Shown piece after piece: positions 22,190 through 57,800 of a DNA stretch of 64,000 bases. Position numbers and translations under genes: made by a program. This DNA comes from Diphasiastrum complanatum (lineage: Eukaryota; Streptophyta; Lycopodiopsida; Lycopodiales; Lycopodiaceae), in NCBI GenBank assembly GCA_029204225.1, contig CM055104.1, positions 39,424,527 through 39,488,526 of the forward strand, in the 5' to 3' direction. Under the pieces are notes generated by a model. It saw nothing but the letters and a program-made list of their open reading frames with translations, was not told the origin of the DNA and did no database searches. Positions within the stretch are counted from its first letter, which is position 1. Every line of letters begins with the position of its first letter.

Positions 22190-22745
22190 ATGGTCCTTGA
22201 TGATCTTTCATTACAATTTGAGATGACTAATTTAGGCCCAGTTCATTACCTTCTTGGTATGGAGATCAGCAGAGATTGCGCAAGCAAAAGGATCATTATA
22301 AGCCAAGAGTCCTATCTAACCAATGTACTTCGCAGATATGGCATGGAGGACTGCAAACCGATAGACACACCCATGGATCCAAGATCCAATATGTCTAAAG
22401 ACATGTGTCCCATAACTCAAGCAGATCAGCAAGAAATGTGTAGGTATCTGTATCAATCTGTCATAGGATCTATAATGTATTCTATGATCTGCACACGACC
22501 TAATCTAGCATATGCGGTGAGCACATTATCTCAGATATGTCCAATCCAGGCCTACAACATTGGAAGGCTTTGCAAAGAGTACTAAAATATATTAAAGCTA
22601 CAAAGCACTATGCTTTGAGCTATAATGGTAATACAGAAGCTGCACTCACTTTGGTCACCTATTCAGATTCGGATTGAGAAGGAGACGATCCACATCAGGT
22701 TATATTTGTTTCCTTGCAGGAGGACCCACTTCATGGTGTTAGATT
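22190..22745 (+). pseudogene. Copia RT end to RNase H fragment
   Basis: The plus strand encodes the end of a copia reverse transcriptase (QFEMTNLGPVHYLLGMEI, KPIDTPMDP, YQSVIGSIMY, RPNLAYAVSTLSQ). After a frame change near 22565 it gives the start of RNase H (LKYIKATKHYALSY, YSDSD). It is cut at both ends: no YVDD box upstream and no RNase H tail downstream. It belongs to a copia lineage different from Copia-4 and Copia-5, judged by the ISRDCASKRIIISQESYL segment. Confidence 0.85.
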
Positions 22746-40224: not shown

Positions 40225-41205
40225 ATATCTAATAATCTAGAACCAAGTCAATACGTGACACAAGGGAGGTAGTCATGCTTGCTTATTCTAAACTAGTGCT
40301 ATGTTATTTATTGGATTTGGGAAATGCGAGACATTTGAGAAATGGTAGGAACAGAACGCTTTGGTTCATTTTCACGTTCTCAATATGGCTCATCTCTTCT
40401 CGTGAAGGCTCATCAGTGCAGTGATTATTTCTTTATATTAGGTTCTACCTTTAGGGATAGACTTCCTTTTTTGTCTATTTTTCTTTTTTTTTCTAAGTTA
40501 TTGGTTACAAAACTGCAGTCTTGCACGACATATATCTTGCTGAATTATAGTATAAAATTTGTCTTTACCTTTTGCCAAAACTGTTGACTTCCACTAAGTT
40601 GCATGAACTGATTCACCCAAATTGCAGGTGGGTATTGTTGTGTCCCCTTCCATTGAAATGTCTTCTCTCATCCATTTCCCCTAGTGATTGGGCCTAAATT
40701 ACCATCATCACAGCCAAGTCTCTAATGTTGGTAGGAAGAGTTCTCGCATGCACTAGCCGATGCTCAACATGTCTGAATTTCCATATAACAAGAAAGACCT
40801 CCTTTTGTTTCACAGTTATTTCACTCATGACACAATGGAAATGTGTTGCTCTCGGGGACTCACAGAAGATGTTTCTAGATGCTTATTTTAGACTTGTGAG
40901 AATATAGAGTCCTCGCATTTGAAAACACACCCACATATCATGCAACTCCTCCAATCTCAAATAGAAAATCCCCATTTCAATGCACTATAAATTATTGACC
41001 AATAGAACCTGCACTCAGTAAGATAATTGTCTCGCAATCAAGGTTGCCAACGTCCTCCAGATTGATGGTCCGGTCCCTAGGTAAAGCGCAAACTTGCCAA
41101 AAACATTTTCAACAGATCTACAAACAACCAAATATCAGTGAAGTATTTGAACAGAGAGCTTATGACTCGCAAATTTGCACTGTACCATGAAAACTTGGCA
41201 TGGAG
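40225..41205. other. Unassigned DNA
   Basis: No gene or transposon was recognised. A plus-strand frame at 40342-40587 is short, hydrophobic and without a motif. Confidence 0.4.
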
Positions 41206-41808
41206 GTTTCTCTGTTGTAGCGGCTTTCGCAGAAGAGAAGAGTAGGTACTTGTGTTATATTTGTATCTAAAAACTTTTGTTTGGACTCTTGGGTATAACA
41301 CTCAAGGGGTTGGGAGAATGTTTTCTTTGGTGTATGCACATGACTCTGTTTTCTTGTGTAGAGAAGGTTGTAGAGAGTTTTGAGATTTCCTTCTTCTAAT
41401 TTCTTCTAATTTGAGTCAATTGGCGAGCGACACACGAGCTTGTTGGAATGAACCCTGTTGCAAGTAAAATTGTGATGGCATTGAATTGGAAAGTGTTGTG
41501 TTAAGATTTCTCAGCTGCAAGTGGCTTTAGCAAGGACTTGTGTGCTACGGTCTACTGTTTTTATTTACAAGAGTACTCTTGGGTTTAACGTCAAGGGGTT
41601 TATGGATTTCTTGTCTTTGGTGTATGTAGTTGCTTACTTTTTATTTTGTAGCTGAGGGTTGTGGAGGGCTGTAGAGAGGGTTGTGGGCTTTAGCAATGGC
41701 GTTTGGGGATAAGGGATTCTTGAAATTGGGTTGCGGTTTCTTGGCAATTGCTATAAGAATGCGATTGGTTTTGAAAAACTGATTGGTGATTGATGATGCA
41801 GGAGTACC
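41206..41808 (+). repeat. R module, copy A (promoter/5' region-like repeat)
   Basis: Homologous, in opposite orientation, to 56190-56800 and in part to 43662-43850. It contains at least two related subunits sharing GACTCTTGGGT, TCAAGGGGTT and CTTTGGTGTATG words, and ends in an intron-acceptor-like ...TGATGATGCAG before an ATG. The sequence is non-coding. Its presence in three places with different downstream genes suggests a mobile or duplicated 5' region. Confidence 0.6.
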
Positions 41809-42124
41809 ATGGCCAATCCCCCCCTCATCCCATAGGATTCGGAAAGGACAAGCACCAAAGTGAGCAGTGACTTTGGGATCCTCGAACTCGAGCGTAGGAG
41901 TAACCTGCACACTAAGCTCTTGTTCGGGTTCTTGGAGAGAGATATCGCACTCGCTGTAGGTGATACCCCTCATCTGCAAGATATTGGATGCCTTGATCGT
42001 CCGGTGAAGAATTGCCAAGTTGGAATTACGGCTTGGCCCGAAATCTCTCAGCAATATCCGGAGCAGGCGACTATAAACAACAATTATGAGGCCTTTAAGC
42101 GGGCTCTACCTAAATCTTTCCAGT
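41809..42124 (+). pseudogene. Unidentified gene exon fused to R module, copy A
   Basis: After the ATG the frame gives MANPPLIP, then a stop. The conserved segment follows with SERTSTKVSSDFGILELER, RRSNLHTKLLFGFLERDI and, further on, KNCQVGITAWPEISQQYPEQ and NNNYEAFKRALPKSF, ending in a stop. The same protein segments are read in copy C, where an extra exon and introns lie between them. Copy A is therefore a shortened, partly spliced-looking version. I do not recognise the protein family. Confidence 0.5.
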
Positions 42125-43009
42125 GACTTCCATGAACTCCTTCGAACGTAAGTGAGTTCCTTCTTTTTCCAATGTCTAGTTTAGTGCCTGGGAATCAAGG
42201 ATTAAATTGAGCACATGACCTAGTTTCCAGCCAGTCTTCATTTCATAGTTTTTGAAAAAGAAATACATCTTTTCTTGTAAGACAAAATTTACAAATGTTA
42301 TTGTCACCGTGACCTTATTTCGCAATGATTCTTGTAAGTACTTTCCAAAGTACAAGACTATAAGACCCCCACCTTTATTTGAATTCACATAAAGCTTTAA
42401 ATTGCACAGGTTTCACTACTTCAAATTCAGCGGAAAAGAACTCGAAAACAATGAGAAATTGAATAGTTGTTGTGATTTTGAATATAGTTTGAGTCGTCAC
42501 TACAAGATGAGGTTTGATTTGCGCAGAAATACCAGTAATAACAGCTTTCTACTGAGTTTTCATTGTAGGTAGTTGATCTAGTGAATAGCTGTAGAACGTG
42601 CGTGATCCCCCTTCTGACCCAACTCAGAAGACTAGATCACATACTCTCCTATATGGGGAAGCCTAACTAGGGATTGATGGTGACAAAGTAACGGAGTGCT
42701 TCCACAACATGGGCTTGCACCTTCGGGATTCCTACAAGCAAAAGAATCTGTTGCTTTATTTTTGAAGGTAGAAAAGTAGGATAAGAACTTCATAGCACCA
42801 TTGTCGATGTAATTCCTTTTCAGTTGACACAAAATTCTACATTGCATGTGCACTGACATCAAAGAAACAACTTGTTTGGCACATTCAAACAAATTCAACT
42901 TATATGCAAGATAAAATATAGATGTTTTGTCTGGTGTATTTTTTATCTTCTAGAATAATTAAGGGCATTTGTATTTGTCTTGTTTGTATAGTTCAATGGA
43001 AAGATTTAG

Positions 43010-43661
43010 GTAGAGCCTGCTTAAAGGCCTCGTAGTTGTTGATTATAGTCGCCTGCTCCGGATATTGCTGGGCAATTTCGGGCCAAGCCCTAATTCCAAC
43101 ATGGCAATTCTTCAGCAGATGATCAAGGCATCCAAATATCTTGCATATGAGCGGTATCATTGCGATCTTTAATCACCTTCTTAGTATAACTTTGAAAGCC
43201 TCCGAGTCCCGGCTACTTGGGGAATCTTCGTAGACCCCATAAGGGCGGCATACCATCTACAAACAAGACCGATACAGAGGTTAAATCAAATTAGCATGAA
43301 CCAAAAAACTTGATAACTCCTGCAAACATAATCACAAGCACACTGAAATCAGAGAAGTGCAAACAGAATCAAAACAGCAATCTCTTACCAGCACCATCGC
43401 CTTGACGGATGGCCTCGTGTCGTAAAATTGTCGGCAATCCCCAATCTCTTGACCTGTCTTCTGAATGCTCCACTTAAGGATCTCTTCTGCAGCGAGTACG
43501 ATATCTCTCTCCAAGACCCCGAACAAGAGCTTAGTGTGCAGGTTACTCCTGCGCTCGAGTTCGAGGATCCGAAAGTCACTGCTCAGTCTGGCGCCTGTCC
43601 TTTCCGAATCCTCTATGATGAGGGGGGGGAAATCCTTTGGGATGAGGGGGGGATTGGCCAT
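43010..43661 (-). pseudogene. Unidentified gene, exons with introns, copy C
   Basis: From the ATG at 43661 the minus strand reads MANPPLIPKDFPPLIIEDSE, then SSDFRILELERRSNLHTKLL, GVLERDIVLAAEEILKWSIQ and RQFYDTRPSVKAMVL. A GTAAGA donor follows near 43390, and TTTGCAG and TTGTTTGTAG acceptors occur further on. It continues with MVCRPYGVYEDSPSSRDSE, then a stop, FGCLDHLLKNCHVGIRAWPE and IINNYEAFKQALPKSF. Exon-intron structure is visible but a stop after VILRR and frame changes suggest a pseudogene. The family is unknown to me. Confidence 0.5.
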
Positions 43662-43850
43662 GGTACCCCTGCATCACCAATCACCAATCAGTTTCTCAAA
43701 ACCAATCGCATTTTGTCAAGAAACCACAACCCAATTTCAAGAATCCCTCATCCCCACACGCCTCAAAAGCCCACAACCCTCTCTACAGCCCTCCACAACC
43801 CTCAGCTACAAAATAGAAAGGAAGCAGCTACACATACCAAAGACAAACAT
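43662..43850 (-). repeat. R module, copy C (short)
   Basis: Minus-strand sequence upstream of the ATG at 43661 matches R copies A and 3 through TGATTGGTGATGCAG, GGGTTGTGGTTTCTTG and CTGAGGGTTGTGGAGGG. Only about 190 bases of the module are kept before homology ends near 43850. Confidence 0.6.
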
Positions 43851-44475
43851 CTCCAAGCAATCCCTCGACATCTACAAGAACCTGAAAGATACCAGACTAT
43901 CCAAAGGAGGTCCACAAGCTCTCTTGACCAAATTCTGCTAGCATGAACTAGTTGTGCGTAAAAAACTACTATTTTGACGCGAGTATTCTTGAACAATCAC
44001 TTCAAGCCATTGCTCAAGTAAATAGGAGATATGACAGACTTTAAAATGTGACATAATCTCTAAATCGGCCGTCTGCAGATTATCCTCGATTGAAGTTCCG
44101 TGCATCAAGACCATCTTCGAAACCCGCGAGATGCAAATTTCGACTATGCAATAGCAACCTCAAGCCTAAGAATGTCGCCAGGCAATAAAATCAACCTGCG
44201 ACTTTAGAAAGTTCAAGCCCAGAATCACTCTAGGATGGAAACACCGCCACATTATCAGCCATTTCCACTGCCAGTAGCAATGGAAAATTAAAGCACAGAA
44301 GCTCGAACAGCCCTGTATCCTGAAGACAGATACACAGAGCACATTTAGATCATCAAGAAGTGTCCTCCTTGGGCTTTTACATAATCATGATTGGGCAAAA
44401 GGACAAAGCAGATGGTTCTTAACTTCATCATAGCAGCGTAACCGATGTCCATATCACCTTCTAATGCAAGAGAGA

Positions 44476-44815
44476 TCAACGAAATTCAATGTTCTGACCA
44501 ATCATGGCCCATAAGCCCTCAATGCGGCAGCATAGTAAAACGCAGATGTGGGCAGGCAAGGACGATTGCAAAGAGAGCTTAGAAGACGCAAACACGTTCA
44601 CAAAACCTTGAAGAATTGATACGAGTCCGTTCAGATTTCCAGCAACAGCATCCGCTACTAAACAATGTCTCCCATAGCATACTCGAGCCCCAACCCCGCA
44701 CCAACTTCCGCAACGAATCGGCTCCCATGCAACCGACACCAGAGTAACCAAAAGCACCAATGCACCCAGATCAATCAAGCTCCCATCCAAACGCTCAAAA
44801 GCGAACACACGTGTA
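44476..44815 (-). other. Exon-like coding stretch of unknown function
   Basis: The minus strand is open for over 110 codons with normal protein composition: VFAFERLDGSLIDLGALVLL, GARVCYGRHCLVADAVAGNL, NGLVSILQGFVNVFASSKLS. A stop lies near 44476. Past it, protein-like sequence continues (DMDIGYAAMMKLRTICFVLL). I cannot name the gene. The upstream part of the same open frame (44815-45198) is low-complexity and probably not coding. Confidence 0.35.
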
Positions 44816-45004
44816 CCTGAAATTAAACATGACAATGCAAGAGGAAGAGGCCCAAACTGAGGAGCATAAAAGGAGGAGAGGATGGTTGGCAAAGGGCCGG
44901 GATGGATGGAATGGGATGGGACACGGGCGTAGATGCGCTCAGTAACCATACATACTTGCTTGGGTTGGATGCAAAGGCAGGGTAAGAGAGATGATAGAGA
45001 CAAC

Positions 45005-45095
45005 GGGAAAGGCAAACAAACACAAAAGGAAGGGAAAGGAAAGAAGAGAAACAAACACAAAAGGAAAGGAAAGGAAAGAAGAGAAGAGAAGAGGT
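45005..45095. repeat. GA-rich short tandem repeat
   Basis: Copies of AACACAAAAGGAA followed by GGGAAAGGAAAGAAGAGAA-type units repeat twice or more with small differences. Confidence 0.75.
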
Positions 45096-45280
45096 ACCGG
45101 GTGGGCGCCAAAGGAAAGGAAGCTTTCTGTACCCGCACTTGTATCCGCATTGCTCGCGAAAAACCTACAACTAGCCACGCAATTTTAGCCTGAATCAACT
45201 ATGATAAGGCAGTTTGACCAAGAGTTTTTTTCGTCAACTGATTCCATGAGTAATCTATATATGAAATCCCATAAGTAATC

Positions 45281-45529
45281 ACTTAAAATAGCAATGATCG
45301 ACTTATACAATGCTTTCTTATTTTGACGGCACCACGTGTGCTTAGTTCTAGAGTTATCGGGCCATCTTTCTTTTACGAGCCCTTTGAGTGTTTTTAAGGA
45401 ACTCATCTTTGTACTTACGAAGCAATTGAATATACAGTTTGAAGAGAGCAATTCTGAGTTCTTGTTGCACTTGACGTTGTGCTGTGGTGATTGATCCGGT
45501 CGGGTGTTTTCAATTGTGTTTTCTTAACT
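45281..45529 (+). repeat. Copia-5 5' LTR
   Basis: Starts ACTTAAAATA and ends TTTTCTTAACT, directly followed by the primer-binding site. Its partner starts AGTTAAAATA, so the ancestral ends were AGTTAA...TTAACT rather than TG...CA. The border is supported on both sides, by the target duplication and by the primer site. Confidence 0.85.
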
Positions 45530-45541
45530 TGGTATCAGAGC
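45530..45541 (+). promoter_or_regulatory. Copia-5 primer-binding site
   Basis: TGGTATCAGAGC, complementary to initiator tRNA-Met, abutting the 5' LTR. Confidence 0.9.
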
Positions 45542-46796
45542 CCTTGGTGGAGGGAATCACTGGACAAGAACAGAGAGCTGCGAATTCACGACAATTTGTT
45601 GGCTAGGAAGCACAAAACCGAGTCTGTGGAGATTCGTGGAACGGCTCAAAACTGTAAAAAGCATTCAGAGACAGGGAATTGTTGGTTGAATCAGAAAGCA
45701 AGCAAAGTTTGAAGCTGAAAAAATCTTCTGGAGGGTTTCTTGGCGTTTGTGATTGGTTTGAATCCAATCGAATACCGTTTGAAGAGCGGTTTGGATCAGA
45801 AGATAACCTACAGTAGGGCGACCTCAGCCAGTTAGGAGCTGCAAAGGAAAGCTCAGGGAAAGCCTGAGTAAAGTTCAAAATATTCTTCAGTTCAAAATTT
45901 CAAGGGACAAAATCTAAGATATCTCCTTGTAGGAGGTCGTTTTCAAAGCTGTGTGAGACTGTGAATGGGCGTCCTAGTAGCGCGATTCAGCGGTAGGGAG
46001 GCCGCGACTGGCCGTGGAGAAGGAAGGCAGCCCGTTCAATCCATGTGGAGCTGCCATATCCTGTGAAGGAGAGATAAGAACTTCATCGCTGAGAGAGAGG
46101 AGGAGGAGAGGTCGCGGGAACTCTCGTGCGCTCAGTCCTAATCATCAGCTAGAGGCCCGAAGTGTTCAGTGCTTCAAAAGGCCTTTGATCAACGCACAAA
46201 AGCGTTGACAGTCGTCCGATCTCGATTCATATAGATCGACGATGGTTATTTCACAACAAGTGGGTCGTTGGATCTAAAGGATCCATTGGATTGAAGTGAA
46301 AAAGTCTGAAGGGGTCTGAAGTGCAAAGTGCATTGCAACTTCATTAAAAATCTTCAAACTGACAAAAATTGTTGGGTCCCAAGCCTTTGAAGGGTGAAGT
46401 TTCTTCACACTGAAGAAACAGTTCAAAAACCCAAATTGTCCTTATTTTCACCTCCTTTAGCCTAGTTTGGCCAAACGAAAGGCTATAGCCTCCAAACGAA
46501 GGGCACCCTGACTGTATGTACCTGCAAGTACGGTACACCAAAACAGAGTGATTGCCGTGGAGAAAGTGTTCGAAGTGCGCCAGAAGTGATTTCACCATTC
46601 CACTGGGCAGGAAGCTGGGAGTTGGTGACGTGAAGCATTTTGAAAAACGATGCCAGTTTGGCTTTCAATTTGGCGAAAGAGCGGCGAGTGGCCTGGTAAG
46701 CTAAAAATTGCAGGTCATTATTATCGATTTCTGACATCATGGTTTGTTCTAGCATACACTTTATAGCCTACAAGTGAAGTTTTAAGCAGTTCAGAG
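45542..46796 (+). other. Copia-5 leader
   Basis: About 1.25 kb between primer site and gag with no convincing ORF. The second third is shared with 28577-29450 and the last 430 bases with 13505-13918, so the leader is a conserved subfamily feature. It probably contains packaging and dimerisation signals, although I cannot point to them. Confidence 0.6.
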
Positions 46797-49793
46797 ATGG
46801 CAAACATCAATGAGACAATTTTGGGCGATGCAAGCAAACTTGATGGGACTTCTAACTACAACATCTGAAAATTTAAAATGAAGAGTATTTTGATGGAGAA
46901 AGAGTTGTGGGAAATTGTGGCAGGTATTGAAGTCCGGCCAAATACTACTCCAGGTGACATAAGGGCCTTTGATAAAAAGGCGCAGAGAGCATTATCCTTG
47001 ATCAATCTTTCAGTGAAAGACCATGTGATCACTCACATAAGTGATGCCCCGACGACTAGAGGAGCTTGGGAGGCTCTTAGAATGCAATTTCAAACTTGCA
47101 ATCCAGCTCGAGCCATGTTCTTGAAGTCGAGATTGAACACAGTAAAGATGGAAGAAAGTGATTCAGTGGGATCCTTCTTCACCAGGATAAAGGAGCTGAG
47201 AGATCAACTTGTGGCGATTGGAGAACCAATCATAGATACTGAATTGGTACATACCACAATGAGCGGTGTCTCGGAAGGGCTACAGATGTTTGTGAGCGGC
47301 ATTGCTTCAAGGGAGAGGTTGCCTACTTTTGAAGACTTCCACGGAATCATGTTGCAAGAAGAGCAGCGTCGCGAAGTGGTGAAATCAAGACAAACCCCAC
47401 AGGAGGATCAAGCCTTACTTGCTAAAGGCAAGCAGAAAGGATGGAAAAGGATTTCTAAGAAATCCAAGGATAATGATGACGAAGGAGAGTCGTCATCAAA
47501 AGGGAAAAAGAAGAAGAAAGGAAAATGCTACTATTGCCACAAACCGGGTCATTGGGCACGCGAGTGTTATAAGAAGAAAGCAGACATAAAGGCGAAAAGA
47601 GTGACTCAACAAGGAAACATTGCCGAAGATGATGGAGAAGATGACGAGACAAGTGTTTTGTCATTGGCATTGGCATCCCAAGTTGATGATGGTGCCAGAT
47701 GGTTCATAGACTCAGGTGCCACAAGGCATATGACCGGAAAACATGATTGGTTTGAAAAATTCTCACCAATCCATGATGGGGATAAGGTCACTCAAGCCAA
47801 TGGAGAGGAATGCCAGATACAGGGTGTGGGCAATGTACCTGTGCAATTTTCTAATGGCAAAATTAAAAACATCCCTAATGTACTTTATGTTCCTGGAATC
47901 AAAAAGAGTTTGCTTTCTGTTGGTGTAATGGCAAATCAACAACTTAAAGTTGAATTTGTCAAGGATGGATGCCTTATGAAGGATATGAACCACAACCACA
48001 AAGTGGTGGCGAAGGGTTATAGAGATAGGAACTGTGGCCTTTATAAATTGGATGCTGCAAAACCAGGTGAATATGGTTTGGCTATCTCAACAGCATCTCA
48101 ATCCGAGTTGTGGCACAGAAGACTTGGTCATTTGAACTATGGGAGCTTGAGATTGATGGCGAAGCTAAAGATGGTAATAGGGTTACCGGCATTGCAGGAT
48201 GATCATCATGCAATATGTGAAGGATGCATCATGGGAAAGCATCACAGAGAGACATTCAAGAAAGGTGGAGCTGCAAGAGCTAAGAAACCGCTGAAACTAA
48301 TTCACAGCGACCTGTGCGGCCCAATGAAGACCATGTCGTTGGGGAAAGCATATTATTTTATGACTTTCACAGATGATTATTCTAGGAGGACATGGATTTA
48401 TTTCTTGAAAAAGAAATCTGACGCTTTTGCTCGTTTCAAGGAGTTCAAAACTTTGGTAGAGAACCAACTAGATGCACACATCAAAGTGCTAAGATCTGAT
48501 AGAGGGGGTGAATGCAAATCTGATGATTTTGAAGACTTTTGCAAAGAACACGGCATTAAAAGACAATTCACACAGTCACACATACCACATAGTAATGGTG
48601 TAGCTGAAAGGAAAAACATAACTATTATGGAGAGTGCACGCTCCATGATGAAGCAAATGGGCTTCACCGATTCACTTTGGTCGGAAGCGTGCAGTGCGGC
48701 AACGTTCTTGCAAAATAGGAGCCCTACAGTTGCAGTTCCAAATGTGACTCCTGAAGAAGCATTTACTGGAATAAAGCCAAAAATCGACAAGTTTCGTGTC
48801 ATTGGATGTAAGGCCTATGTACATGTGCCAAAGGAGGAGCAAAAGAAACTTGATGCCAAAGCAATCAAGTGTATCTTCGTTGGTTATGATGAAAGAACGA
48901 AAGCTTACAGATGTTTTGATCCTGTAATGAACAAGATTCACATTAGCAAAGATGTGATCTTTGATGAAACGCATAGGGATGAAGATGAAGACCATGCAAG
49001 CGGTGAAAGCATCAAGAGACTTCCCACAATTCTGGAGGAAGAAAATGAAGAAGATGCTCCACAAAATGATGCACGTGAAGACGAAAGTCGAGAGGGCGAA
49101 TATGAAAGAACACCACCTATTCAAGAGCCTAGGGGGAGGTACTTGCCAATAAGAGCAATAAAGGAGAAACCGGTTGGAAGTAAGAGACATTACTTGGACA
49201 CTCCTTGGGATACGTACTCTCCACGTAGTGTATCACCTGAATCTAAGATACCAAAATGGTATGAAAAGATCATGAAGGACGCAAAGCTAAATCAAACAGG
49301 ATCTAGCACACGAAGTGAGGTGAGAAGATCAACACGGGAAAGTAAGTCTCCCGATCGTTATCATGTGAACTATGCCCTAATGATTGACATTTTGAAGTGT
49401 CGAGACCCATCAACCTTTGATGAGACAAAAGATCAGAAAGAGTGGCAAAGGGCAATGGAAAAAGAGATAGAATCCATCCAAAGACATGATACATGGGAGT
49501 TGGTTGATCTACCACTTGGAAAGAAACCCATTGACAACAAATGGGTGTTTAGAACAAAGTTTCATGTGGATGGCACAATAGCAAAGTATAAGACACGCCT
49601 AGTAGTGAAAGGTTATGAGCAAAGCAAAGGAATTGACTATGAAGAGACATTTGCTCCAGTGGCTAAGTGGACTACGCTACGTCTTATCATTGCCTTAGCA
49701 TCTCATTTTGGGTGGAAGATCCATCAAATGGATGTAAAGTCTGCATTTCTAAATGGTGACTTAGAGGAAAAAGTTTACATGGTCCAACCGTAG
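46797..49793 (+). pseudogene. Copia-5 gag-protease-integrase-RT start, two stops
   Basis: The ATG at 46797 opens a gag with SKLDGTSNYNI, then a TGA at 46866-46868 where relatives have tryptophan. From the next ATG (46878) 971 codons are open. Domains: gag with FVSGIASRERLPTFEDF; zinc knuckle CYYCHKPGHWAREC (from about 47527); protease RWFIDSGATRHM (about 47700); GAG-pre-integrase LWHRRLGHLNYGSL and CEGCIMGKHH; integrase HSDLCGPMKT, FTDDYSRRTWIYFL, LRSDRGGECKS, HSNGVAERKN; C-terminal IGCKAYVHVPK and IFVGYDERTKAYRCF; RT start NKWVFRTKFHVDG and HQMDVKSAFLNGDLEEKVYM. A TAG at 49791-49793 then ends the frame. Relatives have a sense codon there. Confidence 0.9.
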
Positions 49794-50936
49794 GGCTTTA
49801 TGGCAAAAGGGCAAGAACAAAAGGTATGTAAACTACACAAAGCACTTTATGGCCTTAAGCAAGCGCCATGCGCATGGTATGGACGCATTGACAATTACTT
49901 TCTTTCACATGGCTTTGTAAGAACAAATTTAGATCCAAATCTTTATGTTCTTATAAATGATGACAACATTGCCTTGATTTTACTTTACGTTGATGATATC
50001 ATTATCACTGGCAATGATGAGAACCTCACTCGTTCTATCAAAGCCAACTTGTGCAAGCAATTTGACATGCCAGATTTAGATCTTATGCACTATTGCTTGG
50101 GTGTCGAAGTATGGCAAACTAGCAGTGATATCATATTATGTCAAAACAAGTATGTAGGTGAGATATTGGAGAGATTTCACATGACAGAGTACAAACCTTC
50201 CATCACTCCTTGCGAAGCTGGTAAGAAATTATCTCGTATTGATGATAGTGCACATGTTGATGCTACACTATTTCGTCAGCTAGTTGAAAGTTTAATATAT
50301 CTTACGACTACATGTCCTGATATCTGCTATGCTGTAAGTTTGATTAGCCAATTCATGTCATCACCCACTATGGACCATTGGAAAGCTGCAAAAAGGATTT
50401 TGAGGTATGTGAAAGGTACACCGAACCTTGGTCTAATCTACAAAAGACAAAGTGATTTACCTAAGTTGCAAGGTTATGTTGACGCTGATTGGACTGGAAG
50501 TATAGATGATAGAAAGTCAACAACAGGTTATACCTTCAATTTTGGTAGCGACTGTTTTTCATGGTCTAGCAAGAAGCAAGATACTATTTCTCTTTCTTCC
50601 GTAGAAGCCAAATATAAAACGTGGAGTTCTGCTACCCAAGAAGCTATTTGGCTACATAAGTTGTTATGTGAGATTGGCATGAAGCAGGTAAATCCCATTG
50701 TTATTTTCTGTGACAGTCAAAGCGGAATACAACTGGCTAAAAATCCAATCTTTCATGCGAGGACAAAACATATTGAAGTAAAATATCACTTTGTGCGTGA
50801 AAAATTACAATATGAAGACATAAGTATTGTACATTGTTCTGCGTTGTTACAAGTTGCTGATATATTTACAAAAGTTTTAAGTAAAGAAAAGTTTGAAACT
50901 TTTAGAGCCAAGCTTGGCTTAGACCAGGTCATGTAA
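49794..50936 (+). pseudogene. Copia-5 RT core and RNase H, continuation of pol
   Basis: In the same frame as the preceding part, separated only by the TAG. RT motifs: KLHKALYGLKQAPCAWYGRI, catalytic LLYVDDIIITGND (near 49986). Then DATLFRQLVESLIYL. RNase H: GYVDADWTGSIDDRKSTTGY, SWSSKKQDTISLSSVEAKYK, FCDSQSGIQLAKNPIFHART, IEVKYHFVREK and QVADIFTKVLSKEKF. The tail matches the copia RNase H end, and the stop at 50934-50936 lies 91 bases before the 3' LTR. Confidence 0.9.
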
Positions 50937-51015
50937 AAAGCCTTTACTTGTAATGCTATTATGGAGGTATGTTCCATGAATAGAGTATACTCTAAAATAA
51001 GAAATGACGTTGATC

Positions 51016-51027
51016 ATTGAGGGAGAG
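51016..51027 (+). promoter_or_regulatory. Copia-5 polypurine tract
   Basis: TTGAGGGAGAG immediately precedes the 3' LTR, the expected position for plus-strand DNA priming. Confidence 0.7.
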
Positions 51028-51278
51028 AGTTAAAATAACAATGATCGACTTATACAGTGCTTTCTTATTTCAACACGACACCACGTGTGCTTAGTTCTAG
51101 AGTTATCGGGCCATCTTTCTTTTACGAGCCCTTTGAGTGTTTTTAAGGAACTCATCTTTGTACTTACAAAGCAGTTGAATATACAGTTTGAAGAGAGCAA
51201 TTCTGAGTTCTTGTTGCACTTGACGTTGTGCTGTGGTGATTGATCCGGTCGGGTGTTTTCAATTGTGTTTTCTTAACT
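51028..51278 (+). repeat. Copia-5 3' LTR
   Basis: AGTTAAAATAAC to TTTTCTTAACT, 251 bp, followed by the target duplication TAATC. Compared with the 5' LTR it has a short block of change near TTTCAACACGACACC and scattered substitutions. Confidence 0.85.
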
Positions 51279-51283
51279 TAATC

Positions 51284-51945
51284 TGTATACGATATAGCAA
51301 CAGATTTTGTATAAGCTAATTAAACACTCTTTATAATTCATTAATTTTGCACAACTAACTTTTCAAATCAAACATATTCCTTCCAAATGGATTTGTAGGC
51401 CGAACTAAAAAAACCATGAATATTTAGTACCAAGAAAAACTCGTATACTCATTTTTCTATACATTGAGTTGCAGTTAAAACCTATCTAATTTTTTTATGG
51501 GTATTTCATCATGTCATTCAAAATCATTCCAATTATTGGGTAATTGATGTCATAATTCTATATTATCACATTCTACTATAGCAAATAAAATTATAATATG
51601 AATTTAATTCATGACTTGCAAGGGAAAAACTCACGACCATAAAAAAATAATCGTGTTTATTCCAAAAAGATAACAATTGCACAATATCAAATGTGCAATT
51701 GAGAATATTTTGTAAGCTATTAAACAGAAGAATATTTCAGAAGTTACATTTGCAAGGTAAGGAGTGTTCACTATTCTATTTTGTTTCCACTACATTTAAT
51801 AATTTCAAATGCACATTCACTACCAAATTCTTTCAACTTTTTTGGTAACAACTACTCTTTCTATTTTCTAAAAATAATCTGACTTTTTTTTTTAAGCTCA
51901 TGAAATTTGGGAACGAAATTTTTTTGAAATCATGTACGATAGTTG
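51284..51945. other. AT-rich spacer
   Basis: No gene or repeat was recognised. Confidence 0.5.
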
Positions 51946-52241
51946 CATAGATGCACTGCGTTTCTAGAAACGCGTTTTTGGTTTGGGAATGCGTTTCTCA
52001 AAAACGTTTTTTTTTTTTTTTTGAATTTTGATTCTTATGGGCAATATGGGTATCAAATTAAAGCTCTAATCAAGGGCATTGCATTTATGTAGGTTGCCGA
52101 GTGTTTCGGTTACAGTGTGGTCCAATTTAGGTGCAGCAATCCTTGTTGGATTCTGTCAATCCCTATGAATTTTTAAAGACCTGCCAGAAACGCGTTTCTA
52201 GAAACATTTTTCTCCAAAAAACGCGTTTCTGGGTAACTATG
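51946..52241 (+). mobile_element. hAT-like non-autonomous element, copy 3 (short)
   Basis: Starts CATAGATGCACTGCGTTTC and ends AACGCGTTTCTGGGTAACTATG. It is flanked by GATAGTTG (51938-51945) and GTTAGTTG (52242-52249), a 7 of 8 match. The core GGGTATCAAATTAAAGCTCT and GGTTGGATTCTGTC-like segments match copies 1 and 2 but the GC-rich block is absent, leaving 296 bp. Confidence 0.75.
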
Positions 52242-52429
52242 GTTAGTTGTTAATAAAGTTAGTGGTTATGGAAGTGGTAATTTCCTTCCAAAGTATATAA
52301 ACTGGGAGATTATGCATGTCTCTTGAATAAAGTTTAAACTTTGAAAAGTGAAATTTGCAACTGCAGTTTGCATTTCGCTTTTCAAAAAGTTTATGTTCCC
52401 AAAATCTATTCCAGTACTTTCCAAACCTA

Positions 52430-52575
52430 ACGTGGCGGGGTGCATTCAGTCCCCAGACGCGTCCGATTTTTTTTTTTAATTTTTTTTGATGTTTTTAGAG
52501 TTAATATGGACGCGTCCGGGTCCGGACGCGGACGCGCATTGCCCACGTCCTGCCCGGACGCGCATCCCTGTGAAT
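52430..52575. repeat. Cluster of GGACGCG/CGCGTCC words
   Basis: The word ACGCGTCC or its complement occurs repeatedly (near 52457, 52510, 52528, 52556), around a T-rich spacer resembling the T-run next to CGCGTTTC words in the hAT-like copies. It could be another small mobile element; no clear termini were found. Confidence 0.4.
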
Positions 52576-54020
52576 CCAAACCTATTCATTTGTTGAACAA
52601 CCTTATTTCTCTAACACTACCTAGTATTACTTAATTGATGTGTAGACAACTACCTATTTCCTCCCTATTACACTTTGAATAGCAGTTATCCGGTTTTTTT
52701 AGACTCCTTATAAAGCTTCTGTTAAAAAATTAAACCAATTTAGAGGTTTATTTCTAGGAGCGTAAAATTATTGCTCATGAGATCACCCTGTCGGCTTTGA
52801 GAGGCCAAAACGAAACATGTTCCCGTTTGACTAGGCTTCTAAAAATCATAAAACTTCTATGTGCTCTCAACACGGTTAGCAGCGAAACTGAAGATCGCTA
52901 CAATTCTAGAAGAGCTGAGTGACAGGAAGTGGCTACAAATAGCCAGATTCTAATGATACAATCAAAATAAGCTCGCACAACAAAGTTTGTAGAGCAAACA
53001 ACTGACGCTACCTCCTGTGCTGTGATTCTGTTTGAAGCTGGTTTGATCGCAGAATCATGAGCCAGTCATGGAATAGAGAGAATAATGTAGCACGTTGTAG
53101 AGAATGATTGTTTAAATAAAGTAATATCAGACCTTATCATACTTTTAGCAAGAGCGAATGAACTTTCCTATCAATTTTTTTGTAGACGGATATTAGATAG
53201 TTTGTCTCTTGCATCGCTTCTGTCAAACTTATTATAGAATTCAGAATTCAGTCACGTTTCTTGTTCCAACTCCACCATGGATGCCCCTAACCACGCAATA
53301 ACTCGCTTATCCAATGGGTACGTCTACTGGATCCAGTGAAAGATACGCATGTGAGCTCTCTCACTGCTCAGCCAGCACCATGGATCAGAATTCAAGTTGG
53401 ACGGGAGGAGTGAGCTAGTTAGTGAGGTCCATGGACTGTGGCTCGCTGACAGCAGCTATGGCTGGTGGGTGTGGTGATAAATAAATGTATGAAGCATGGC
53501 CCATGTATGCAAAGCTGTAGAGGTAGCTCAGAGACCAGCATTTATATGCTTTCAAATTCTTTGATTATTTTCATGTTTTAAACCTGACAAACGGAATTAA
53601 AACTGTTGCGTCGCTATAGAAACACATTTCTGGAAAAGAATGGATGAAGAAATTCACGGGATAGTAAAAATAGGTCCATCAAACATTTGTAAGTTTCAAA
53701 AGACGCAATACACTATGCATCAATCAATCGTACTCGTCATATGTTACGAGCCAATCTTATAAAGAACCTACAACAATTAAATGAAAGTTGTTGAACATGC
53801 AGAATAAAACCAATAAATTCTAAATTCAGAGCTAAACTTATTGAAATTTTTGCAGGTAATATTCCTACAGACTCCAAAACTAATCAATGAAATACCAATT
53901 TCAAGAATTGGCCGGTAAGAAATGATCAGATTTTCATGAGCACTGCTAAAAACCACCGTCTACTTGAAGAGATAGGTATGATATGCAAAGGATTGCAGCA
54001 AGAAAAAAGTTTGGCACCTC
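52576..54020. other. Unassigned DNA downstream of the RIE1-like fragment
   Basis: If the RIE1-like gene was once complete, its later exons (transmembrane region and RING finger) should lie here on the minus strand, but I could not read any. Confidence 0.4.
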
Positions 54021-54024
54021 GCAT

Positions 54025-54147
54025 GCTCCACATTGCTTTCATCTTCATGAGATTTTTTGTCACGCTCGATTTCATTTTCCAAACTTGTCGACTCCAGTGA
54101 ATTTGAAACAGCACGAACTCCATTAGCATGTCTCCCACGTCTAGTAC
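54025..54147 (-). pseudogene. RIE1-like gene fragment 2, next to a gypsy LTR
   Basis: The minus strand is open and protein-like right up to the LTR edge: TRRGRHANGVRAVSNSLEST, then SLENEIERDKKSHEDESNVE. It ends at a possible AG|GT donor near 54025. RIE1-type ligases have basic Arg-rich sequence after a membrane segment, followed by an acidic/Ser-rich linker, which fits. The assignment rests on position downstream of fragment 1 on the same strand and on composition, so it is tentative. Confidence 0.45.
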
Positions 54148-54582
54148 TGTTATAATCTACTTATTACTGCAATCCTCCAGTGCCGAACGATTCACGTTCC
54201 ACCCCGCCGTAGGACCTAATCCGGGTCCACCCTCCGTGCCTTGGCCTGTGACCGAATCAAGCAGGATCCGGCTTCCATCCCTGACGGCGTCCCATACCAC
54301 CGCCTAGGCTCTCAGCCATCTCCTACCTCACGCTAGCATACATCCTGGCCGTGCACACGCTCTCCATCCACCTCCTCCTAGGTAGATAGAATGGATGACA
54401 AATGAGTCCTCCTTCCCTTGTATACCTCCAAGGAGAGAGACTCCAAGCCATGTGCACACCTAGATCATGACACGTGACAACCATGCAGGTTCACGAGTCA
54501 CCAGTCAAGTCTACAGGCCCAGTCATCGTCTAGTCTCAGGTCTGGGTTTGGGACCCAAGGGAGTTGGGTCCCTAACATTCCC
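54148..54582 (-). repeat. Gypsy 3' LTR
   Basis: Minus orientation: starts TGTTAGGGACCCAACTCC, ends GTAGATTATAACA, 435 bp, canonical TG...CA. A purine-rich GGAAGAGGGAA precedes it. The internal part matches 55741-55921 with few differences. Confidence 0.85.
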
Positions 54583-54898
54583 TCTTCCTTGAAAAATTCC
54601 TTATCTAAGGAAGAAAACCAGGGAACCTCAGTTTAAGGTCACATTCCTTTTCCCAAGTATCATCATCCTCAAAACTTACCTTTCCAACGAACCAAGTACT
54701 CAGTTACCTGCCGGTTTCTGAGCCCACGTTGACGTACATCAACAATGGCCTGTGGTTCCGTAGATACAAAGGATGTTAGGTCCTCCAGCCGAACTAAGTC
54801 CTCCTGAAGTATCAAGTCATCCTTTCCACCAAGTCGTTCCTTTAAACCGATGGAGTTTTTTTACTATACAGAATGGTCCTACATAGTGAGGTGATAAC

Positions 54899-55740
54899 TT
54901 ACGACATTTTCCAGTCTTTAATACCTTGAGTCTTTTGGGATTCTAAGATATACCCAAGCCCCCTCCTCATAGACCCTAGGTTGTCGCTTTTGATTAGCGT
55001 AAATTGGGCTCTATCCTGAACCATTTTAACGTTTTCGCGAGCAACAAGCAACATTTCTTGCACATGCAGGAAATCTACTATTGCTTTAACCTTGAGGCCT
55101 TTGAGGCCCACTGAAATGGGAGCCCTAGGCTGGAAACCATACATCAGAGAAAATGGACTAAAACCCATCGCTGAGTGTTTTGCACTGTTATACGTAGACT
55201 CAATCATTGGAAGGTACCTTTCCAAATCTGACTGTCTTCTAGACACATATGCCCGAAGCATATCTTCGATAGACTGGTTCGTCCTCTCTGTCTGACCATC
55301 TGATTCAGGATGATCAAATGACCCCAAACTTAAAGTGGTCTCTAATTTCTGAAAGACCGCTTGTTAGAATTTGCCAGTGAACTTTGGATCTCGATCACTA
55401 ACAATGTCATTCGGCAAACCAAATAACCTGAACAACTTTTTAACGAAAAGCTGAGCAAGTTCAGAAGCTTTGACGGTTTGCTTGGTTGGTAAGAACTCCG
55501 CCATTTTAGTTAACCTGTCAACTATTACCCAAATGGCATCATTTTGCTTCCCCGTCCGAGTTTGCCCACCACAAAGTCCATGGAAATGCTTTTCCACTTT
55601 CTTTCGGGAATTTCCAAGGTCATTAGTAAACCAGCTGCCTTAAGTCTTTCAACTTTATTAACTTGGCATTGTGCACACTTGCGAACATATGCCTCCACTT
55701 GACTTTTTAAGTTTGGCCAGTAAAAGTTCCTTTTTACCAC
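54899..55740 (-). pseudogene. Gypsy integrase
   Basis: Frames in order: 55525-55740 has KRNFYWPNLKSQVEAYVRKC and CAQCQVNK (zinc-binding) then ISMDFVVGKLG. 55364-55597 has VIVDRLTKMAEFLPTKQT and DIVSDRDPKFTG. 54899-55327 has the third catalytic region (HPESDGQTERTNQSIEDMLR) and SPFSLMYGFQPRAP. Frame changes near 55570 and 55340-55365 break it. The DDE catalytic residues can be seen in separate frames. Confidence 0.85.
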
Positions 55741-55921
55741 CGCCTAGGCTCTCAGCCATCTCCTGCCTCACGCTAGCATACATCCTGGCCGTGCACACAC
55801 TCTCCATCCACCTCCTCCTAGGTAGATAGAATGGATGGCAAATGAGTCCTCCTCCCCTTGTATACCTCCAAGGAGAGAGACTCCAAGCCATGTGCACACC
55901 TAGATCATGACACGTGGCAAC
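55741..55921 (-). repeat. Gypsy 5' LTR, truncated at both ends
   Basis: Matches 54299-54484 of the 3' LTR. The inner edge joins integrase through TGGTA shared by both partners; the outer edge joins RIE1-like sequence, having lost about the first 100 bases of the LTR. Confidence 0.8.
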
Positions 55922-56115
55922 TATTGTCTGCTTAAAATTAACACCACAATTGTAACCACCACAAATGCTAAGTTCCAGATCAGATCTAGAATGACAACCG
56001 GCCTTGAATAGGCCCAATCGCTCCCTCTCTTCCAATTGCTCTGCGAATTTGCAGAGAACGTAAGACTTTGAAGAGTGAAACCGGATGACACGAACCTGAA
56101 AAACCGAATAAAACC
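55922..56115 (-). pseudogene. RIE1-like RING E3 ligase fragment 1
   Basis: The minus strand reads CKFAEQLEERE and, after a two-base loss, SDWAYSRPVVILDLIWNLAF followed by VVVTIVVLILSRQ. This is the conserved first transmembrane region of plant RIE1-type membrane RING ligases, where an (A/E)EQLEER...DW.YS(R/K)PVV stretch precedes a hydrophobic span. A TTTTTCAG acceptor lies just upstream near 56100. The fragment ends at a gypsy LTR remnant, and the RING finger is missing. Family recall is from memory; the match is strong over about 45 residues. Confidence 0.6.
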
Positions 56116-56157
56116 TGTTCTGACATTATACAACGAAAAGCTATATTCAATATGTGA

Positions 56158-56800
56158 AAATCCTCTGGGATGAGGGGGGATTGGCCATGGTACTCATGCA
56201 TCACCAATCACCAATCAATTTTTCAAAACCAATCGCATTTTGTCAAGAAACCACAACCCAATTTCAAGAATCCCTCATCCCCACAGGCCATCGCAAAAGC
56301 CCACAACCCTCTCTACAACCCTCCACAACCCTCAACTACAAAATAAAAAGGAAGCAGCTGCATACACCAAAGACAATAAATCCATAAACCCCTTGACGGT
56401 TAAACCCAAGAGTACTCTTGTAAATAAAAACATCAGACCATAGCACACAAGTCCCTGCTAAAGTCACTTGCAGTCAAGAAATCGTAACACAACACTTTCC
56501 AATTCAATGCCATCGCAATTTTACTTGCAACCGGGAATCAAAAAATTCGTTCCAACAACGCATGTGTCATTCGCCAATTGACTCAAATTACAAGAAATTA
56601 GAAGAATGAAATCCCTACAAAATCCTAAAACCCTCTACAACCCTCCACTAAACAAGAAAACAAAGCCCTGTGCATACACCAAAGAAAACAAATCCCCAAT
56701 CCCTTGATTGTTATGCTCAAGAGTCCAAACAAAACTTTATAGATACAAATATCACACAAGTACCTACTCTTCTCTTCTACGAAAGTTGCTACAACGGAGG
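56158..56800 (-). repeat. R module, copy 3, upstream of the RIE1-like fragment
   Basis: Read on the minus strand it repeats copy A from GTAGAAGAGAAGAGTAGG near 56780 through TGATTGGTGATGCATGAGT to the ATG at 56188 and the MANPPLIP codons. Immediately after these the sequence diverges from copies A and C and enters RIE1-like DNA. The splice-acceptor-like CAG of copies A and C reads CAT here. Confidence 0.65.
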
Positions 56801-57800
56801 AACCTTAACCCAACACTTTCCAACTCAAAGCATCGCAATTTCAGTTGCAACAGGGCATCAAGAAATCTTACAACACAAGTGCCAATTGCCTCCAACTACA
56901 AGAACTAAAACCATTAGGCTGCAGCACACATGTCCTACTCTTAACGCTGCCTGGAAAGGAGAAAACCTAACTCAACAGATTGTTATTTCACTTTCACCAG
57001 TGGATCAAGAAATCGTACCACCAACAGTCGGCGCCTGCGTCACGCGCCAATTGACCCCAACAACAAGAACGCTTGTTCTAGAGATAGTTGTGCCGCGAAA
57101 CTGGCCGCCCATGAAAGAGAGGCACAAAAAGATTTCTCAAAACTGTACAAATACGTGCAAAACACCTCCAAACTGATTGTTGATAATAGAGACAGAAGAT
57201 GTGCCAGGAAAGTAGTCGTTGATGATAGACACAAAAACGCTTCCAAATTGTTGGTGACAAAGACACAGATGTCGCAAGAAACGGATCCCTAAAGAACGAG
57301 ACACACAAAAGCATTCTGATTCACAAAATGATCAGTGATAACACAGAGATGAGATATCAGCCCATAGCAAACTAAAACAGATCATCGCTGCTAGATACAC
57401 AGAAGTCCGGAGTAGAAAATAGCAATCTCGTTAATAAAGCACTCAAAATCCAGCTTCTGCGCTTCATGCTGGAATCAGACATTGCATGGAAGTCCGGACT
57501 CCGCACTGAAGAACGCAAACAGAGAGAAATCAAGCACAACCCAACCACCTGAAGTTTCTATTTATCCAACAGCAAATCCTGGCCACCTTGTGCGCTTCAT
57601 GGCGGAATGATACACTGCATGCAACTTGGGCACCGAAAAACGCAAACTAGGAAGCAGATACTGCAATGCTGCATGCAGCACCGCATTGAAAAATGCAAAA
57701 AACCAGGAATAGATGGAACACAAAAGGAAGCACAAGTTAGAACGCGTGAACTTTCTATTTAAGCAACATGAAATCATGGCCAGTGCCAACGTTCATTCCG
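56801..57800 (-). other. Upstream part of the R/RIE1-like locus, repeat units and unassigned DNA
   Basis: From 56801 to about 57060 further degenerate units occur, each with GCCAATTG(A/C)C and CAAGAAATC words. Beyond 57060 the sequence is single-copy within the window and GC-moderate, with paired GCGCTTCATG words near 57458 and 57591. No coding region was recognised; it may be promoter DNA for minus-strand transcription. Confidence 0.35.

Follow-up and report, generated by a model that had tools for sequence, protein, structure and literature searches.

A repeated module, best read as the 5′ end of genes in a local orphan family, and its probable fusion to a Helitron-like element in Diphasiastrum complanatum

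The genome of Diphasiastrum complanatum contains, within a stretch of 64,000 nucleotides analysed here (the window; C13:39424527-39488526 of assembly GCA_029204225.1, 1.74 Gb in 5176 contigs), three copies of a module, R, each ending in a short segment that bears an ATG. Two of them, A and B, run on into the body of a gene that we call SSDF, and the third, copy C, into DNA carrying a fragment that resembles RIE1 genes for membrane RING ligases. The initial annotation took this arrangement as the mark of a mobile promoter or 5′ exon that swaps its partners, perhaps through capture by a Helitron or Pack-type transposon. Here, the reading that fits best makes R the native 5′ end of SSDF, a local family of orphan genes, and copy C probably an R module fused by rearrangement to a Helitron-like element that has lost its own 5′ end. 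Capture of a host gene by a transposon, as first proposed, fits the RIE1 side of the junction, where a gene fragment lies inside a Helitron-like element, but it does not fit R. What had looked like a swapping promoter becomes a traceable and ordinary history, comprising a local orphan family, a dispersed element carrying part of a gene and a single rearrangement.

R and the SSDF gene family

All three copies of R reported in the window are real (Table 1), and their pairwise identity of 90.5-92.7% over the aligned parts, together with genome-search E-values reaching 0, shows that they are not chance resemblances. The module is a degenerate array, pieces of which recur 312 and 321 bases apart inside copy C, and a 34-bp unit of the array recurs upstream of copy C at 56798-56831. 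As first described, A and B share one downstream body and C does not. The peptide MANPPLIP, attributed to the ATG segment of every copy, is indeed read in A, where a stop follows at once, and in B, but not in C, which lacks one C at this segment and reads MANPPSSQRIFTY and then a stop, a frame of 13 codons; translation from the ATG of copy C would therefore never reach the RIE1-like fragment.

Table 1. Features of the window, with positions counted from its first base
Feature	Position	Strand	Remarks
R copy A	41204-41838	+	Degenerate array of ~315-bp units and start of SSDF exon 1 (MANPPLIP, then in-frame stop)
SSDF body, copy A	41839-42126	+	Without ~330 bp that copy B has, from the end of exon 1 through the intron to the start of exon 2
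SSDF body, copy B	42993-43646	-	Exon 1 open; intron GT...AG; exon 2 frameshifted
R copy B	43647-43850	-	Truncated; tail-to-tail with copy A
Helitron-like element with RIE1-like fragment	45171-56158	-	5′-truncated at 56158; homologous in pieces to C2:58754465-58757609; 3′ end ...GGCTAAAATTGCGTGGCTAG, then TT; last base 45171
Long terminal repeat (LTR) retrotransposon inserted in element	45266-51278	+	Copia-type by eye from frames; LTRs about 45283-45530 and 51030-51279
RIE1-like fragment, part 2	53618-54150	-	93% to C17:39977479-39978023
LTR-retrotransposon fragment	54151-55920 (about)	-	Inside RIE1-like fragment; 190-bp repeats 54295-54484 and 55735-55924; integrase-like frame, labelled by eye
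RIE1-like fragment, part 1	55921-56044	-	Mid-frame; 96% to C17:39978106-39978231
X2	56045-56158	-	114 bp between R and RIE1-like fragment; matches on C2, C13:51.22/52.08 Mb, C23 and C407
R copy C	56159-56805	-	More degenerate repeats of the same array further upstream

A search of the whole genome for R, in which 13 of 13 first-look candidates were scored, returned 15 matches at 13 places: seven loci at C13:39.466-39.719 Mb, five at C13:50.088-50.174 Mb and one on the unplaced contig C1774, whose sequence is 99.98% identical across 10 kb to the locus at C13:39.718 Mb. The corresponding search for the SSDF body (11 of 11 candidates scored) returned 13 matches at 11 places, and these are the R places with the exception of copy C and a near-identical twin of it at 50.158 Mb. 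The same two-exon gene thus lies downstream of R at 11 of the 13 places, and no third partner was found among them. We infer that the 50-Mb and C1774 copies represent a second haplotype or duplicate contigs, which would leave seven distinct R loci, spread over ~250 kb at pairwise identities of 89.0-96.5%.

These distributions bear directly on the proposal that R is a self-moving 5′ untranslated region or promoter unit that changes partners. Three copies in 16 kb with two different downstream sequences are what such a unit could produce, yet 12 of the 13 places are on one chromosome, the remaining place is on a contig duplicating one of these, and the genome-wide count that the initial annotation had set as a test of mobility comes close to a uniform downstream gene. 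Nor did alignment of the outer borders, suggested at the same time, bring out termini: the outer limit of R varies by copy (query positions 1, 97, 202 and 406), as would not be expected of a mobile unit whose ends are constant, and no common outer terminus was found among the copies returned by the genome search. Mobility of R in its own right is exceedingly improbable.

The gene that R precedes was followed in an alignment of 11 sequences (seven loci and four twins), compared as far as the interior of exon 2, in which the order, wherever the parts are present, is ATG segment, GT...AG intron, exon 2; the splicing is predicted from the sequence only. The copy at 39.58 Mb retains both exons open, with an exon 1 of 249 nucleotides and an exon 2 that remains open until its stop. 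Elsewhere decay is the rule, copy A having acquired a stop and a deletion, copy B and the copies at 39.527 and 39.547 Mb frameshifts, and the 39.718-Mb copy being without the ATG exon. All 22 genome matches to the SSDF protein fall inside the cluster, its 50-Mb copy or C1774, and nothing above threshold was found in Pfam, NCBIfam or PDB (in PDB, no match at E up to 10). We regard SSDF as a candidate lineage-specific gene, with no relative found elsewhere in this genome and one copy open in both exons, under what appears to be weak or unproven constraint, and R presumably acts as its promoter. Assignment of the protein as a VHS domain (TOM1-like, PF00790) was rejected at a best E of 0.036 and 14.4 bits against a cut-off of 29.8; the likeness belongs to exon 2 (C13:39580190-39580850) and stays below threshold across copies (E 0.036-0.22).

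A separate observation concerns copies A and B, which form an inverted pair at 41611-43846. A transcript reading through both is predicted to fold as a long hairpin, a possible source of small RNAs, with 472 of 835 predicted pairs joining the two arms and a longest perfect run of 55.

The junction at copy C

Copy C leaves R at a blunt junction, read base by base, at which R (...GAGGATT, position 56159) abuts TTCACATATTG (position 56158), and this junction was found in just copy C and its 50.158-Mb twin. The twin is part of an inverted copy of window 40696-64000 at C13:50.151-50.174 Mb, ~10 Mb away, two blocks of which are 99.7% and 99.9% identical; exactly 10,000 N then follow, and past them window 12208-33780 was matched at 97.8-98.8%, with pieces in mixed orientation. 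A second near-identical copy beside a gap shows that contig placement is imperfect here, which lends some weight to an artificial joining of unrelated sequences at copy C. The twin, however, carries the same junction and is distinct beside it, since 114 bp of the window (56023-56136), including the start of the RIE1-like fragment, are missing there, and an assembly chimera is most improbable. A similar inverted pair lies at C13:51.217 and 52.082 Mb (99.3% identical), and both this pair and the 50-Mb copy are probably uncollapsed haplotypes placed on one chromosome.

On the far side of the junction the RIE1-like exon does not follow the ATG segment directly, as had been supposed: the 114 bp of X2 intervene, and homology to the gene on C17 begins, in the alignment, at 56044, in the middle of the C17 open frame. 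Copies of this sequence on C2 and at C13:51.22 and 52.08 Mb continue upstream past the equivalent of 56158 with sequence of their own that is not R, and over 368 bp the upstream sequences of the C2 and C13:51.22-Mb copies are 95% alike. Two insertion scenarios were tried and dropped. Insertion of R into the upstream region of the element is unsupported, since the upstream sequences from C2 and C13 (1.9 and 4.2 kb) have no supporting match to the right of R, whether in the window or the 50-Mb segment; their matches to the window are a 48-bp repeat at 56046-56093 and a 212-bp stretch at 65% (22392-22601), and beyond these a few short ones of 30-56 bp, none with E better than 0.008. As no SSDF sequence follows the 3′ end of the element at 45170, the idea that the element inserted into an SSDF exon was rejected.

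A more serious alternative is that a Helitron-like element captured R at its 5′ end and moved it, making copy C a chimeric transposon composed of R, X2 and the RIE1-like fragment. R and the element are contiguous there and on one strand, and the element family is both dispersed and the bearer of a foreign gene fragment. Against this stand the RIE1-bearing copies just described, with their own upstream sequence in place of R, the absence from our searches of any other place holding R and the element together, and the relative ages of the parts. If the capture of R came later than the separation from the 51.22-Mb copy, any donor that survives would be expected to resemble it more closely than the known R copies do: copy C differs from its 51.22-Mb relative at 33 of 777 sites (4.2%), the closest element copy, as against 8-9% between the R of copy C and the three R copies compared, namely copy A (58/618, Fisher p 0.0002), L008 (35/423, p 0.006) and copy B (18/205, p 0.013), although a lost donor would escape the test. 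On these differences, and on its identity of 90.4-92.7% to all six other R loci, the R of copy C does not derive recently from any of the R copies found, as would suit a native locus. We judge capture of R unlikely.

Under the preferred reading, in which R is native and copy C a fusion, the SSDF family with its R 5′ end would have been amplified on one chromosome by segmental duplication and would mostly have decayed, with copy C originally an R-SSDF locus like the others. Separately, a non-autonomous Helitron-like element would have taken up an internal RIE1-like fragment from a parent on C17 and been copied to C2 and C13, and one of the C13 copies, with an LTR retrotransposon already inside, would have sat downstream of copy C on the same strand. 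A deletion with blunt end joining, the simplest rearrangement, would then have removed the SSDF body and the 5′ end of the element and joined R at 56159 to 56158. Such a deletion, joining a native locus to a same-strand element downstream, would require one event, and the component processes are all of known kinds.

The Helitron-like element and its RIE1-like fragment

From 56158 down to 45169 the window matches C2:58757609-58754465 in pieces, with the exception of the LTR-retrotransposon fragment and the copia-type element, and the homology ends at GGCTAG followed by TT; outside the RIE1-like part the two copies are 84-92% identical. The initial annotation saw no Helitron ends, and for the 5′ end this holds, the window copy having lost it, but a CTAG 3′ end is present at 45171 on the minus strand, ~11 kb from the junction. 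The 6-kb LTR retrotransposon inserted ahead of it may explain why it was missed. A 181-base query taken from this end has 32 matches in the genome, distributed over at least 15 chromosomes, and several of them comprise only the last ~40 bases. In 17 termini that were read (15 fetched, plus the window and C2, all picked as matches that reached the end of the query), CTAG was terminal in every case and TT came next in 16; the flanks are unrelated save for two pairs, leaving 15 independent flanks, 14 of them with TT. The other 15 of the 32 matches lay outside this sample; several stop short of the end, and one is the 50-Mb twin, whose end was seen separately. No inverted partner of the tail was found at up to 4 mismatches in the loci examined, where the tail occurs solely at known 3′ ends, and no target-site duplication was seen by eye in the flanks of one C2 copy. 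With its constant CTAG terminus, the element has the look of a transposon family, and we call it Helitron-like, an assignment to class that is itself provisional. The Helitron Rep domain (Helitron_like_N, PF14214) is in general very abundant in this genome, with 1332 first-look candidates, of which 150 were scored.

The RIE1-like exon of the initial annotation survives in its homology to the C17 gene but not as an exon, for it is a mid-frame fragment interrupted by part of a retrotransposon, which replaces 82 bp of the C17 sequence. A protein query found 10 genome matches, including long open frames on C17 (217 amino acids) and C11 (274 amino acids). Pfam yielded no family above its cut-off, RING or other, either for the fragment or for the initial open frames of the C17 and C11 genes, whose later exons were not sought; the one sub-threshold match in those open frames was to DUF3995, at an E of 0.012. 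The name RIE1 is carried over from the initial annotation and is putative; the hydrophobic stretch DWAYSRPVVILDLIWNLAF... is of a kind seen in RIE1-type proteins.

X2 accompanies the RIE1-like fragment on C2 as well as at C13:51.22 and 52.08 Mb. The idea that X2 was itself captured from a gene on C23 was dropped: on C23 and C407 the same strand carries the 3′ end of the family at a distance of 25-28 kb downstream from X2, and X2 is therefore probably element sequence, which in each case may form one element with that distant end. On C2 (L043, 58757.6-58758.0 kb) and at C13:51.22 Mb (L044), the sequence upstream of the RIE1-like fragment includes a TATATATA box together with a piece that resembles an exon and bears a GTAAG donor, and C2 retains an open frame of 204 amino acids into the fragment, perhaps an expressed chimera.

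It might also be supposed that copy C is a working chimeric locus, in which R drives a transcript into the RIE1-like fragment, and that this transcript, or the A/B hairpin, makes small RNAs acting on the parent genes; we consider this very unlikely.

Weight of the evidence and comparison with known systems

Several observations weigh against the history preferred here. The counts of R and of the SSDF body are lower bounds by the search tool's own warning, so that extra copies of either are possible. The SSDF body of copy C was not found, and its deletion is deduced from that absence; the timing rests on the comparison with the C13:51.22-Mb copy, in which sequence of the element and of a retrotransposon is measured against that of R. 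Ratios of non-synonymous to synonymous change measured against the open SSDF copy run from 0.51 to 1.27 over 84-166 codons and do not demonstrate an active gene. As regards the element, choosing termini that reach the end of the query favours a conserved end. An imperfect stem of 8 pairs lies 13 nucleotides from CTAG in 5 of the 17 termini (-3.8 to -3.9 kcal/mol), a weaker one in another 5 and none in 7, and the stems of C2 (-3.8 kcal/mol) and the window (-3.9 kcal/mol) are equalled by 9.5% and 6.9%, respectively, of 116 sampled control CTRRT sites. At the other end, the start TCTCATTCTAGAA is common to C2 and C13:51.22 Mb, with A as the preceding base in C2 and G in the other; C6 has just CATTCTAGAA of it, and C9 has the 5′ flank of C2 without the start. 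Finally, no Rep/helicase could be tied to the family, none of the 150 candidates scored, out of 1332, lying at C23:35.177-35.203 Mb.

One account gives the hallmarks of Helitrons as an A^T target, a 5′ TC, a 3′ CTRR and a hairpin 8-12 bp from the end (PMC2702305), and another describes Helentrons, which insert in TT, and one Helitron group without a 3′ hairpin (PMC5148889); on the strength of the latter, a non-canonical Helitron is possible. The family is like plant non-autonomous Helitrons (reviewed in PMC13317346), such as those with GIGANTEA fragments in Lolium (PMC2702305), in being dispersed with an internal piece of a host gene, in its fixed CTAG 3′ end, mostly followed by T, with no inverted repeat of the tail found, and in the persistence of the parent gene elsewhere. 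It differs in its weak or missing hairpin, in having no established 5′ TC/A border and no linked Rep/helicase, and in the 5′ truncation of copy C. The family, its 3′ end sharply defined across many chromosomes of a seedless plant, offers a handle for surveying the capture of gene fragments.

Compared with RIE1-like membrane RING genes, the fragment shares the stretch DWAYSRPVVILDLIWNLAF with its C17 and C11 relatives, whereas the window holds a mid-frame piece and the DNA following it, with a broken frame and no Pfam RING. Clusters of lineage-specific (orphan) genes formed by tandem or segmental duplication are of a known kind, and the SSDF family is like them in its seven loci over ~250 kb, mostly decayed and with a 5′ region and body in common; it differs in the fusion of one of its members to a gene fragment carried by a transposon and in the tail-to-tail inverted arrangement of two others.

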